64,000 nt of DNA from Mesorhizobium sp. M1B.F.Ca.ET.045.04.1.1 (GTDB lineage Bacteria; Pseudomonadota; Alphaproteobacteria; Rhizobiales; Rhizobiaceae). The position numbers and the translations under genes were made by a program. The stretch is from the NCBI RefSeq assembly GCF_003952465.1, contig NZ_CP034448.1, forward strand, positions 1,736,001 through 1,800,000, in the 5' to 3' direction. Positions 6,922 to 10,930 of the stretch are shown here, piece by piece. A model generated the notes under the pieces. It was not told the origin of the DNA, made no database searches, and saw nothing but the letters and a program-made list of their open reading frames with translations. The first letter of the stretch is position 1. Every line of letters begins with the position of its first letter.

Positions 6922-9900
6922 CTATTTCTTCAGCTGGTCGCGCAAGGCGGCGAGCTTGGCGAAGGGCGAATCCGGGTCGAAGCGCTGCGGACGCTCCTCG
7001 CGTGGCTTGCTCTGGAAGGCCGGCTTGTTGTCGCCCGCGGCATTTCCTTTGCCGCCCTGCCTGTTGCCCTTCCAGTCCGGCCGCCCCTCGCGGCGGTCGC
7101 CGGTTTCCGGCCTCGGCTTGAACTTCGAGCGATCGAAGCGAGGTTTGCCGGCGCCGTCGCGCTGGTCGCGACGGCCTTCGTGGGTCGGCCGATCTCCGGC
7201 CTGGCCGCCAGTGGCGCCCGCCTGGCCATCATGCGCAGTCAGTGCGCCGCGCTGACGGTTATCGCGTCGGTTGTCATGGTGGCGATGGCGCGGGCGCTGA
7301 TGATCGAAGCGCGCCTGTCGCCACAGAAGGATCGGCTTCGGCTCTTCTTGCTCGGCTGGGGCTTCGCCGGCCTTACCCTCCCCCTCGTGGGGAGGGTCGG
7401 CGCGCAGCGCCGGGGCGGGGGGAGCGCCGGCACCGGCGGTATTGGTGCCGTCTGCATCGCCGGCGCCATCACCCCCACCCGCGTCGCTTCGCGCCGCGAC
7501 CTCCCCCATCGAGGGGGAGGTCGGAGCCTCGGTGGCCTGCTCTGGCGCAGGAGCGGCTTCTCCTACAGCTTCAGTTTGAGGCTGCTCTTCCGACACGGGC
7601 TCTACGCCGGCCTCAGCGGCAGACTCCGTGCCTCCGTCGGTCGTAGCTTCGGTAGCTTGTATTTCGGCTATCGGTTCCGAGCCTTCGGCGGCGGTATCGG
7701 CAGCCGGCATCTCAGCCGCCTTTGCAGCGCGCGCGGCCTCTTCCGCGGCGAGCTTCGCGGCGGCGGCTTCGCGGGCGGCGCTGTCCAGCGCGTCGAGCTT
7801 GGCCTTGACTTCGGCGGCCGGCTTCGGCTCGGAACGATAGCCCAAGCCCTTGAGGATCTCTTCCATGTCGTCGGCGGTGGCGCCGAGGATCGACATCATC
7901 GGCGGCGTCACCATGAAGGCGTGGCCGTCATAAGCGCCGTCAGGGCGCTGACCGAGGCCGGGCTTCCAGTTGGTCGCCGGGCGGATGAGATCGGCGAGCC
8001 TTTCCAAAATGTCGACACGCACGGCGCGGCGGCCGAGGTTGCGGTAGCCGGCGAGTTTGTAGAAGGTCTTGTCGAAGGCCGGGTCGATGACCACCGAGGT
8101 GCGGCCCGACGCCAGCGCATGGACGACGTCGCCGAAGCCCGGCTTGTCCTTGCCCTCGTTCTTCAGCGCCCAGAGCAGCGTCACCAGCCCGGCCGGCGCC
8201 GGCTTGATCAGCGCCGGCACGAAGACGTGGTAGGCGCCGAAGCGCACGCCAAGGCGCCGCAGTGCCGCGCGGCCCTCCTGGTCGAGCGACTTCATTTCCT
8301 CGGCGATGTCGCGGCGGTTGATGAGGCCGAAATGCTCGACGAGCTGGAAGGCTATGCCACGCGCGATGCCGGCGAGCTGGTCGGCATTCTTCAAGTCGAC
8401 GAGCGGCTTCAGCAGCGACTCGATCTGGAAATTGACGAAACGCTCGGCGCGCGCCGCGACCTTGTCGCGGGCCGGCCCGGTGAGCTGTTCGTCGGCAAGC
8501 AGCACAAGCCGCGGCTTCAGCGCCTCGTCACCGGCGACCAGCGTGCCGATCGGTGCGCCGATCCAGCGCAATATGCCGTCCGAGCCCAATGCCAGATCGC
8601 CGTTGGCGCAGGCGGCAAAGCGCTCCGAGCGCGCCTCGAATTCCGTGCTGAGCGCCTTCTGGGCGGCGGTGCGCACCGCCTTGGCATCCTCGCCGCCGGC
8701 GCTCTGGTCGGCGGTGAAGCGGAATCCCTGCAGCTCGCCGACGTGATGGCCTTCGACGAGGACGGTTCCGGTTGGGCTGATTTCGGCTTCAGGCATGGTA
8801 TTTTCTCTAAGGCGCCGCATGAGGACGGAAGTCCTGCGGTCTACGAAGCGTTTCGTCAACCGCTCATGCAGCGCATCCGACAATCTGTCTTCGATTTCGC
8901 GCGTCTTTTCCTGCCAGTGTAGCTGATCGGCCAGCCAGTTCGGTCGGTTGGAGACGAAGGTCCAGGTGCGGATCTGTGCGATCCGGTGCGACAGCGTGTC
9001 GATATCGCCATCCGTCGTGTCGGCTCGCCGCACCTGCTCGGCCATGTAATTCTCATCGACATGGCCATGGCGCGCAAGGTCCATGTAGATCGAGGCGATA
9101 AGGTCAGCATGCTGCGCGGGCGCGATCTTGCGGTAGTCCGGCAGCGCGCAGGCTTCCCAAAGCAGCGCCACGCGCTCCTTGCCGCTGGCAAGCGCGCGGA
9201 TATCCTCGTCGCGCGACAGATGTTCCAGCGCCTGGGCGTCCACCACCGGCAATGCCCGGGTCAGCCCTTCGACCGGCGCGTTGGTCTCGATCGAGCGCTT
9301 CAGGGCATCGAGGCTGGTGAAATCGAAATCGACGGTGCGCCACTGCAGCACCTTCACCGGGTCGAAGTCGTGTCCTTCGATCTTCTTGACCAGATCCTCG
9401 TCGAACGGATCGACCTGACCGGTGACGCCGAAGGTACCGTCACGCAGATGCCGCCCGGCGCGGCCGGCGATCTGGCCGAGCTCGGCGGCGGTCAGGTTGC
9501 GGTACTGGTAGCCGTCGAACTTGCGGTTCTGGGCGAAGGCGACGTGCTCGAGATCGAGGTTCAGCCCCATGCCGATGGCGTCGGTGGCGACGAGATAATC
9601 GACATCGCCAGACTGGAAGATCTCCACCTGGGCATTGCGGGTGCGGGGCGAGAGCGCGCCGAGCACGACTGCCGCGCCACCCTGCTGGCGGCGGATCAGC
9701 TCGGCGATGGCATAGACCTCGTCGGCGGAGAAGGCGACGATCGCCGTGCGCCGCGGCAGGCGGGTGAGCTTCTTCGAGCCGGCATAGGCGAGATGCGACA
9801 GCCGCGGCCGCGTCACCACCGAAATGCCCTTCAGCAGTTTCTGCAAGATGCCGTGCATGGTGGCGGCACCGAGCAGCAGCGTCTCCTGGCGGCCGCGCAA

Positions 9901-10275
9901 ATGCAGGATGCGGTCGGTGAAGATGTGGCCGCGTTCCAGGTCGCTCGCGAGCTGCACCTCGTCGATGGCGACGAAGGCCGCATCGGTCTCGCGCGGCATC
10001 GCCTCGACGGTGCAGACAGAATATTTCGCAGCTGCCGGAATGATCTTCTCTTCGCCGGTGATGAGCGCCACCTTGTGGGCGCCGACCTTCTCGCAGACGC
10101 GCGTGTAGACCTCGCGGGCAAGCAGTCTGAGCGGCAGGCCGATGATGCCACTCTCATGCGCCACCATGCGCTCGATGGCGAGGTGGGTCTTGCCGGTGTT
10201 GGTGGGGCCGAGCACGGCCGTCACGTCGCGGCCCGAAAGGATCAGCGGCTGGGTGTGTTTCGGCTGGATGTTCAT
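6922..10275 (-). CDS. Suv3-like superfamily 2 RNA helicase with repeat-derived insertion
   Basis: About 1117 residues from the ATG at 10275; the frame is open 25 codons further to 10350. SF2 motifs: Walker A GPTNTGKT at 23-30, the DEVQ box in FVAIDEVQLASDLERG, motif V ATDAIGMGLNL, motif VI GQIAGRAGRHLRDG. This set and order resemble mitochondrial Suv3. A long middle region of unknown fold follows. The C-terminal quarter is low-complexity, first Ala/Glu-rich, then Arg/Gly/Asp-rich and basic (about 1010-1117), like an RNA-binding tail. An inverted pair of intergenic-type repeats is embedded in frame at 7374-7525. Role in RNA turnover is inferred from the family and from the S4 neighbour. Confidence 0.85.
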   Translation of the reverse strand: MNIQPKHTQPLILSGRDVTAVLGPTNTGKTHLAIERMVAHESGIIGLPLRLLAREVYTRVCEKVGAHKVALITGEEKIIPAAAKYSVCTVEAMPRETDAAFVAIDEVQLASDLERGHIFTDRILHLRGRQETLLLGAATMHGILQKLLKGISVVTRPRLSHLAYAGSKKLTRLPRRTAIVAFSADEVYAIAELIRRQQGGAAVVLGALSPRTRNAQVEIFQSGDVDYLVATDAIGMGLNLDLEHVAFAQNRKFDGYQYRNLTAAELGQIAGRAGRHLRDGTFGVTGQVDPFDEDLVKKIEGHDFDPVKVLQWRTVDFDFTSLDALKRSIETNAPVEGLTRALPVVDAQALEHLSRDEDIRALASGKERVALLWEACALPDYRKIAPAQHADLIASIYMDLARHGHVDENYMAEQVRRADTTDGDIDTLSHRIAQIRTWTFVSNRPNWLADQLHWQEKTREIEDRLSDALHERLTKRFVDRRTSVLMRRLRENTMPEAEISPTGTVLVEGHHVGELQGFRFTADQSAGGEDAKAVRTAAQKALSTEFEARSERFAACANGDLALGSDGILRWIGAPIGTLVAGDEALKPRLVLLADEQLTGPARDKVAARAERFVNFQIESLLKPLVDLKNADQLAGIARGIAFQLVEHFGLINRRDIAEEMKSLDQEGRAALRRLGVRFGAYHVFVPALIKPAPAGLVTLLWALKNEGKDKPGFGDVVHALASGRTSVVIDPAFDKTFYKLAGYRNLGRRAVRVDILERLADLIRPATNWKPGLGQRPDGAYDGHAFMVTPPMMSILGATADDMEEILKGLGYRSEPKPAAEVKAKLDALDSAAREAAAAKLAAEEAARAAKAAEMPAADTAAEGSEPIAEIQATEATTDGGTESAAEAGVEPVSEEQPQTEAVGEAAPAPEQATEAPTSPSMGEVAARSDAGGGDGAGDADGTNTAGAGAPPAPALRADPPHEGEGKAGEAPAEQEEPKPILLWRQARFDHQRPRHRHHDNRRDNRQRGALTAHDGQAGATGGQAGDRPTHEGRRDQRDGAGKPRFDRSKFKPRPETGDRREGRPDWKGNRQGGKGNAAGDNKPAFQSKPREERPQRFDPDSPFAKLAALRDQLKK
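7374..7525. repeat. Inverted palindromic repeats inside the helicase coding region
   Basis: Two inverted units: one begins ACCCTCCCCCTCGTGGGGAG and continues GCGCGCAGCGCCGG (7374-7422); the other contains CGCTTCGCGCCGCG followed by CCTCCCCCATCGAGGGGGAGG (7469-7525). Each has the hairpin-plus-GC-tail form typical of rhizobial intergenic repeats. Both are translated without breaking the frame, giving PTSPSMGEVAARS and PALRADPPHEGEGK in the low-complexity linker. Confidence 0.75.
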
Positions 10276-10930
10276 CGGCTGGGAAATGACGCTTTCTGCC
10301 GCTTGTTGTCGGGAACGCGGCGGTGCCGCCGCGTGTGACAGGCGACACATAGGGATTTCAGACGCGAAGCGAAAGCGGAATGTTCCCTGAAAAAAATGGC
10401 GCGCCGACGGGCAAGGTCAAAATCTGCGGCCGATTAACCGTTGGAACGAGTCTGGAACGAATCGGCGACGAATCGCTGACTCGGCCTGATTCAGGTTTTG
10501 TTCACGGCTATATGTGGATTTTTTGACGCTGAGTCTCACCACATGCTGAATCCAAGAACTGGCCCGTTTCATGCTTGGCTCGGGCGCGCTTCGAACGGCC
10601 GTTAACTTTTGCCGGCGAACGGTGGCGGCTTACCTGAGTGCAGTCGCCAAAGTTATGAAATGGTTGATCTTTCCTAATCGCCCATTAATTATTTTGACGC
10701 CGTTTCCGCTCCGCGCGTTAACTTTTCGGCCAAAGCCGGAACGAATCGGCGACGAATCAGCGATCTACGAACTTTCCCGTTTTGTTCACCTCTAGATATG
10801 GTGTTGTCCACAGCTTGCGCACCGAAAATTCACAAGCTGTGAACGGGATTTCGCATAGGGCGCGCGGAAGCCGTTAACTTTTGCGTGCCGAATTGAGGCA
10901 TGCGTCACGCGTTCCGCCGGGAGCGCAGAC
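10276..10930. other. Repeat-rich non-coding region
   Basis: No convincing gene in 655 bases. A 21-base direct repeat starting GGAACGAATCGG occurs at 10454-10474 and 10738-10758; 20 unrelated bases after each copy comes GTTTTGTTCAC (10495-10505, 10779-10789). GTTAACTTTT occurs at 10601, 10717 and 10873. A DnaA-box-like TTGTCCACA lies at 10804-10812. Several AT-rich patches are present, for example around 10681-10700. The helicase promoter must lie at the left end on the minus strand. Confidence 0.7.

Follow-up and report, generated by a model that had tools for sequence, protein, structure and literature searches.

A composite palindromic element in frame within a Suv3-like helicase gene of Mesorhizobium, with copies between and within other genes

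The best-known palindromes within protein-coding sequence are those of Rickettsia, in which they could be blamed on the reduced genome. The Rickettsia palindromic elements (RPE; Ogata 2000) are described, in the available text of the papers citing them, as palindromes of approximately 100-150 bp present both between genes and in frame in unrelated conserved genes (PMC2229807, PMC10969869, PMC3733652). GTAG and CGTC REPs are likewise palindromic, form dimers in opposite orientation downstream of genes, and in some cases lie in ORFs including that of a UvrD/REP helicase (PMC3733652). In-frame fusions of RPE, ERIC and other MITEs have been reviewed (PMC2229807, PMC10969869). Bru-RS and RPE families are listed together in PMC2267715, where a repeat found inside genes, Cod-2, is likened to RPE, and RIME is named in PMC2573895. 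Among the matches listed in a search of the open-licence literature, covering titles and abstract starts, no paper on in-gene palindrome copies in Mesorhizobium was found. A palindromic element lying in frame within a helicase gene of Mesorhizobium sp. M1B.F.Ca.ET.045.04.1.1 is described here. The window analysed is a stretch of 64,000 nucleotides (contig NZ_CP034448.1, 1,736,001 to 1,800,000), and positions are those of the window.

The element and its host gene

The features of the locus are as follows.

6922 to 10350, minus strand: Suv3-like DExQ helicase gene, host of the element; open frame of 1142 aa, identified by Pfam
7342 to 7848 (limits approximate), minus strand: low-complexity linker from the helicase core to the conserved C-terminal part, placed by the orthologue anchors GLGYR and PKPILLWR
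7375 to 7521, minus strand: composite palindromic element, in-frame residues 944-992, TSPSMGEVAARSDAGGGD...APALRADPPHEGEG; defined by repeats, fold, genome copies and orthologues
7499 to 7521, minus strand: outer hairpin of the 5' unit, ACCTCCCCC/GGGGGAGGT; 95.8% of cells paired in 24 sequences
7480 to 7498, minus strand: inner hairpin of the 5' unit, with a single mismatch; 95.8% of cells paired in 24 sequences
7413 to 7479, minus strand: tails and spacer between both units, from alignments; length varies among species with the frame kept
7398 to 7412, minus strand: inner hairpin of the 3' unit, CGGCGC/GCGCCG; 98.6% of cells paired in 24 sequences
7375 to 7397, minus strand: outer hairpin of the 3' unit, ACCCTCCCC/GGGGAGGGT; 91.7% of cells paired in 24 sequences

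The element consists of two inverted units of approximately 50 nt around a spacer, each with an outer and an inner hairpin. The outer hairpins are of the CCTCCCC...GGGGAGG type. Folded as single-stranded RNA the segment reached -115 kcal/mol compared to -85.55 (sd 4.74) for shuffles (z -6.21), and none of 200 shuffles folded as well. A covariance model of the half-unit matched positions 7377-7422 in the 3' unit with 63.4 bits. Rfam gave four matches, every one far under the gathering score, and a known RNA family was rejected on these grounds.

The helicase was identified by the DEXQc_Suv3 (E 6.8e-27) and Helicase_C (E 1.9e-9) domains. Translation of the ORF showed no stop across the inserted segment, which the helicase frame reads as 49 residues. 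The linker is GC-rich and of low complexity. In the AlphaFold model residues 854 to 1103 had no drawn secondary structure, the whole model being poor (mean pLDDT 43.5). The first-pass annotation had described inverted hairpin repeats in frame inside the helicase, and the open ORF, the hairpins and the fold confirmed this. Its layout stood as to the inverted repeats and was corrected otherwise: the gene runs on the minus strand, and the two inverted units of the segment make up a composite with four hairpins.

Helicase orthologues and constraint on the insert

The best 80 of 146 helicase relatives were kept. Both linker anchors were present in 78 of these, with L060 and L061 ending before the site. 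The insert was found in 28 of the 80 named orthologues, remnants in three, a different palindromic insert in two and none in 47 (including L060 and L061); the states of L058, L083 and L087 were assigned by reading the peptide or the alignment. The helicase frame was open through the insert in all 28 carriers. The remnants in L056 and L081 are scars which retain one outer hairpin, while L058 retains less. A quick-method tree of the helicase core (2361 nt, root not inferred) confined the carriers to one group of 72 rows, mixed with 40 non-carriers and the three remnants. The minimum number of state changes on this tree was 17, a count in which gain and loss are not distinguishable. L083 and L087, outside the 72-row group, had other palindrome-like peptides in the helicase linker (SPLEGEV..PPLEGEG and SPLAGEV), apparently separate insertions.

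Seven sister sets were aligned, and most non-carriers had unrelated linker sequence at the insert site. As the linker is replaced in these, no clean empty helicase site was found. The segment is not a conserved part carried by all orthologues. The earlier expectation that relatives would lack exactly this segment held in that 47 of 80 were without it, but not in its exactness, since most aligned non-carriers have another linker there. The left junction and the spacer were common to carriers in the alignment, which suggests one old entry into the helicase linker.

Divergence was compared in the 28 carriers and the window. Mean differences at codon positions 1, 2 and 3 were 0.086, 0.103 and 0.147 in the arms, 0.264, 0.232 and 0.355 in the spacer, and 0.300, 0.315 and 0.519 in the mid linker. 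The linker part adjoining the core (0.130, 0.119 and 0.442) was more constrained than the insert, and the first and third positions of the helicase core had 0.040 and 0.235. The codon-position ratio of the insert resembles that of the mid linker and is thus not that of a constrained domain. The segment had been called domesticated. This was not supported because peptide constraint in the arms is close to that of the adjoining mid linker, and because the insert is patchy, often absent and decayed to remnants. Differences at 4-fold sites were 0.14 in the arms, 0.32 in the spacer, 0.26 in the core and 0.46-0.48 in the flanking linker. Divergence of the arms at these sites was low and uncorrelated with host divergence, indicating that neutral drift is not all that acts on the DNA. 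On the sequences compared, the arm similarity reads as exchange between copies or a weak nucleic-acid constraint.

Two explanations other than a single old insertion followed by many losses bear on these results. The segment may have spread among species as an allele through homologous recombination of the linker, a serious possibility to which we give somewhat less than an even chance. Carriers and non-carriers alternate among sister species with at least 17 changes, arm divergence is independent of host divergence, and the unrelated linker in most aligned non-carriers makes allele exchange a live alternative to plain loss. Against this, the divergence of the spacer tracks that of the host gene (Spearman 0.25-0.34) and is about as large as that of core 4-fold sites.

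The in-gene palindrome might instead be kept for a role in DNA or RNA, such as RNase processing, translation pausing or a binding site, with the peptide as a by-product. This is unlikely, though the low 4-fold divergence of the arms relative to spacer and core, without host correlation, would agree with it. The pairing test covered 24 inserts in alignment; five others, shortened or diverged, were left out. Standard pairs made up 95.2% of 744 cells, a value reached by none of 500 shuffles, and three pairs were changed on both sides, which was equalled by three of 500 shuffles. However, three two-sided changed pairs were also obtained when the structures were slid by +1 or +3 columns, and 36 of the cells were unpaired and only four compensated. 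The absence of the insert from 47 of 80 orthologues (two of them not judgeable) also argues against such a role, and module exchange between copies, as in the HrpB gene below, would likewise keep the arms alike. Structural selection on the helicase hairpins is accordingly weak, as breaks are mostly uncompensated and two slid controls reach an equal two-sided count.

In-frame copies in other genes

In-frame copies were found elsewhere in the source genome in the genes for HrpB, XdhC, HyuB (the B part of a hydantoinase A/B fusion), GlyQ and GlyS. In most in-gene copies the 5' arm is read as SPLEGE, and PPLKGEG is a frequent reading of the 3' arm. All eight in-gene copies seen in the source genome lie in minus-strand genes of the contig, glyQ and glyS being neighbours. 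The glyQ-glyS region (C1:6517574-6519829; L139, L434) holds four elements in 2.3 kb: two in GlyS, one between the genes and one in GlyQ.

GlyQ was matched in 60 of 61 genus genomes, through the insert in seven (source genome included) and not through it in 53. Junctions were read in 30 loci, seven with the element and 23 without. The element replaces eight codons present in the others, for example those of ASNDNLPM. For HrpB a one-piece match was obtained in 28 of 99 genomes, the source genome included. The junction was readable in 21 of 30 loci; 19 of these, all among the 28, had the element and two were without it, carrying GGGKSAMPVP or a close variant. HrpB elements were shortened in some loci (L309, L321), and whole inner-hairpin modules differ among carriers with the frame still open.

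Twenty further loci in relatives, chosen by us from the peptide matches listed, comprised PcrA (nine), PDH E2 (five), hydantoinase A (HyuA; five) and GlyS (one). In the five PDH E2 loci copies were present on both sides of the E3-binding domain, which was placed by Pfam in L272 only. On chain 3lfu_A (DNA helicase II) the PcrA insert maps between residues 237 and 240, and on chain 7eiv_A the GlyQ insert maps at residue 240; the AlphaFold model of GlyQ was poor like that of the helicase (mean pLDDT 38.8). From these and similar positions, many sites lie inside enzyme domains and not only in disordered linkers. Linker disorder, offered by the first-pass annotation as the reason for tolerance, does not serve as a general one given the copies inside GlyQ, PcrA, HrpB, XdhC and hydantoinase. 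Judging by these sequences the helicase is not a special case, and its insert belongs to a family of palindromes that lie in frame in genes of this genus.

Faulty assembly of a GC-rich palindrome is a highly improbable explanation of the in-gene copies. In the source genome the gene halves at the PcrA element (C1:4109537-4109688, L136) are in different frames as assembled, with the break at hairpin C or G runs, and the same applies to the first GlyS element (C1:6518071-6518188, L139). Set against these two cases, each of which may be an assembly error or a real frameshift, are the helicase frame, intact in every carrier, and the inserts of GlyQ, PcrA (nine of nine relatives read), HrpB, E2 and HyuA, which are open in several separate genomes.

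Copies across the genome, mobility and known systems

BLAST of the segment against the 7.78-Mb source genome gave 16 matches, two of which were the query itself on either strand. The self-complementary outer-hairpin pattern was found at 30 places compared to none for a backwards control. This rules out a chance palindrome: hairpins could be imagined to arise in a GC-rich, low-complexity linker rich in Pro, Glu and Ala, but the recurrence of the hairpin and of the composite layout elsewhere and the patchy presence in orthologues leave that next to no probability. Twenty-two of the 30 outer hairpins form 11 pairs whose starts are separated by 97 to 152 bp; the element is therefore normally a composite of two units.

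The covariance model, built on five units, gave 135 half-unit matches at E<=1 in the source genome. The best 133 fell into 103 sites, with at least two units at 30 of these. The two weakest matches were left out. The number of sites is a lower bound, as the list missed the second GlyS element. By our own hairpin patterns 17 sites were of the window's type (F1), two mixed F1/F2, 29 F2, 35 F3, five F4 and 15 unassigned. F1 to F4 have a common two-hairpin plan with different stems across the 103 sites. Subfamily F3 presumably resembles RIME. The stems of the inner hairpins vary in sequence yet remain complementary in the copies examined.

Site locations were scored with a home-made codon-usage gene finder. 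Fifty-nine sites lay between tandem genes, 35 between convergent genes, three between divergent genes, two at a region edge and four in a gene, which places them mostly behind genes. The earlier view that the unit is normally intergenic was borne out, the whole-genome search giving copies mostly between genes. A local in-gene test added XdhC to the four in-gene sites. XdhC had been missed by the first test because an overlong upstream frame masked its coding signal, and the local test in turn does not pick up the helicase, in whose linker codon use is unusual. In-frame sites including the helicase numbered five of the 103 model sites, with five of 19 for the F1 type and none of 84 for the others (Fisher p 1.3e-4); F1 units were the basis of the model, which missed a GlyS copy, and the contrast is therefore only indicative. 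Sixty stretches of 20 kb, sampled evenly (1.2 Mb), held 35 sites, 23 with at least two units. Four of these 23 were in genes (helicase, GlyQ and GlyS twice, one GlyS copy having a broken frame), a number too small for extrapolation. Of the 12 single-unit sample sites, two were inside predicted genes and were left out of the element count. The 13 F1 composites had two to five open frames of six (mean 3.3 compared to 2.8 in base shuffles); their frames are little more open than those of shuffles.

The peptide was found at E<=1e-6 in four genomes, all Mesorhizobium and including the source genome, out of 249 sampled across the order. No peptide match was present in plasmid records at E<=1e-3. Peptides as diverged as that of L087 would escape both searches. 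A partial DNA unit (25-46% of the query) was present in nine plasmid records: five of Phyllobacterium, two of Methylosinus and one each of Terrarubrum and Pleomorphomonas. The intergenic site between an MFS gene and purH (L131, L335-L383) was compared in 29 loci with one-piece matches and 20 chosen by us, from 99 genomes; 48 of the 49 were readable. Depending on the species it holds an F1 composite, an F3 composite, a single hairpin or other sequence, a variety which fits turnover of elements. No clean empty site was present among the 48 readable loci.

No target-site duplication was seen at the GlyQ and HrpB sites, where carriers are without 8-10 native codons, a loss for which simple transposition is insufficient as an explanation. 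TA was present within 4 nt of 15 of the 30 outer hairpins. A search of the source genome for the Y1 family found no RAYT. The only Y1_Tnp match (C1:7656222-7656467, L143), which we take to be of IS200 type, has one stop inside and no unit beside it. A REP-RAYT identity was rejected for these reasons. Because neither a clean empty site nor a RAYT was found, transposition as the cause is only something we infer.

The segment is very probably a copy of a short non-autonomous palindromic mobile element. The element would be a REP/MITE-like element of Mesorhizobium whose full unit, of two inverted halves of approximately 50 nt and a spacer, measures about 100-180 bp. Copies would land mostly behind genes and now and then inside one. 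Being GC-rich and stop-free in two to five of six frames, the element in its usual phase would be translated as a hydrophilic Pro/Ser/Gly/Glu peptide (SPLEGE...PPLKGEG), and for this reason a frame-keeping copy could survive in a linker or loop. In the helicase a single entry probably took place early in the main Mesorhizobium clade, judging by the shared left junction and spacer, and the insert would afterwards have been lost or exchanged many times. Some losses may be deletions between both outer hairpins that leave a single-hairpin scar. The insert is likely tolerated and not selected for its peptide. More tentatively, and with the odds somewhat against it, the palindromes in essential genes of Mesorhizobium may form a standing reversible population which enters loops by replacing native residues, swaps hairpin modules with other copies in frame and leaves one-hairpin scars. 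If so, the genus contains a large natural set of enzyme versions with and without the element, for example of GlyQ, GlyS, PcrA and PDH E2.

In these root-nodule bacteria, pieces of mobile DNA inside a helicase and other housekeeping enzymes would be translated into protein, and this is apparently tolerated. Here coding palindromes occur in a large-genome, growable relative, in several host genes and with related species that have or lack them at a given site. This makes it directly testable whether such an insertion is neutral, costly or useful. The inserted peptide (SPLEGEM...) can also mislead homology searches and annotation.

Compared to known systems, the coding palindromes of Nematomorpha mitochondria are also inverted repeats in translated genes; they are mitochondrial, and intergenic mobile copies are not mentioned in the available text (PMC6649704). 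RIME of rhizobia and Bru-RS of Brucella are, by description, intergenic palindromes of related alphaproteobacteria, for which the text available does not mention in-gene copies (PMC2573895, PMC2267715). The element resembles MITEs in being short with terminal inverted repeats, as seen in its inverted halves and the 11 hairpin pairs. ERIC, NEMIS and YPAL, set beside it by description, are inverted-repeat elements of 100-200 bp whose frames fuse with genes (PMC2229807), and differ in that no target duplication was seen at the in-gene sites compared here. With GTAG/CGTC REPs, as far as they are described, the element shares palindromes, dimers in opposite orientation, a position behind genes and some copies in ORFs. 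It differs in having GTAG at none of the 30 outer hairpins and, from GTAG REPs with a RAYT, in having no unit beside the lone Y1 transposase match of the source genome. The likeness to RPE proposed by the first-pass annotation holds for behaviour: a palindromic repeat of approximately 100-150 bp lies between genes and in frame in unrelated protein genes. By description RPE differ: here two inverted units of two hairpins each form a composite, the genome measures 7.8 Mb, and the CGTC tag (PMC3733652) is near only one of 30 outer hairpins. The element therefore works like RPE but is not a member. Intragenic REPs are already known and, as far as seen, what is new in Mesorhizobium is the family of elements and the setting, the type of event being known.
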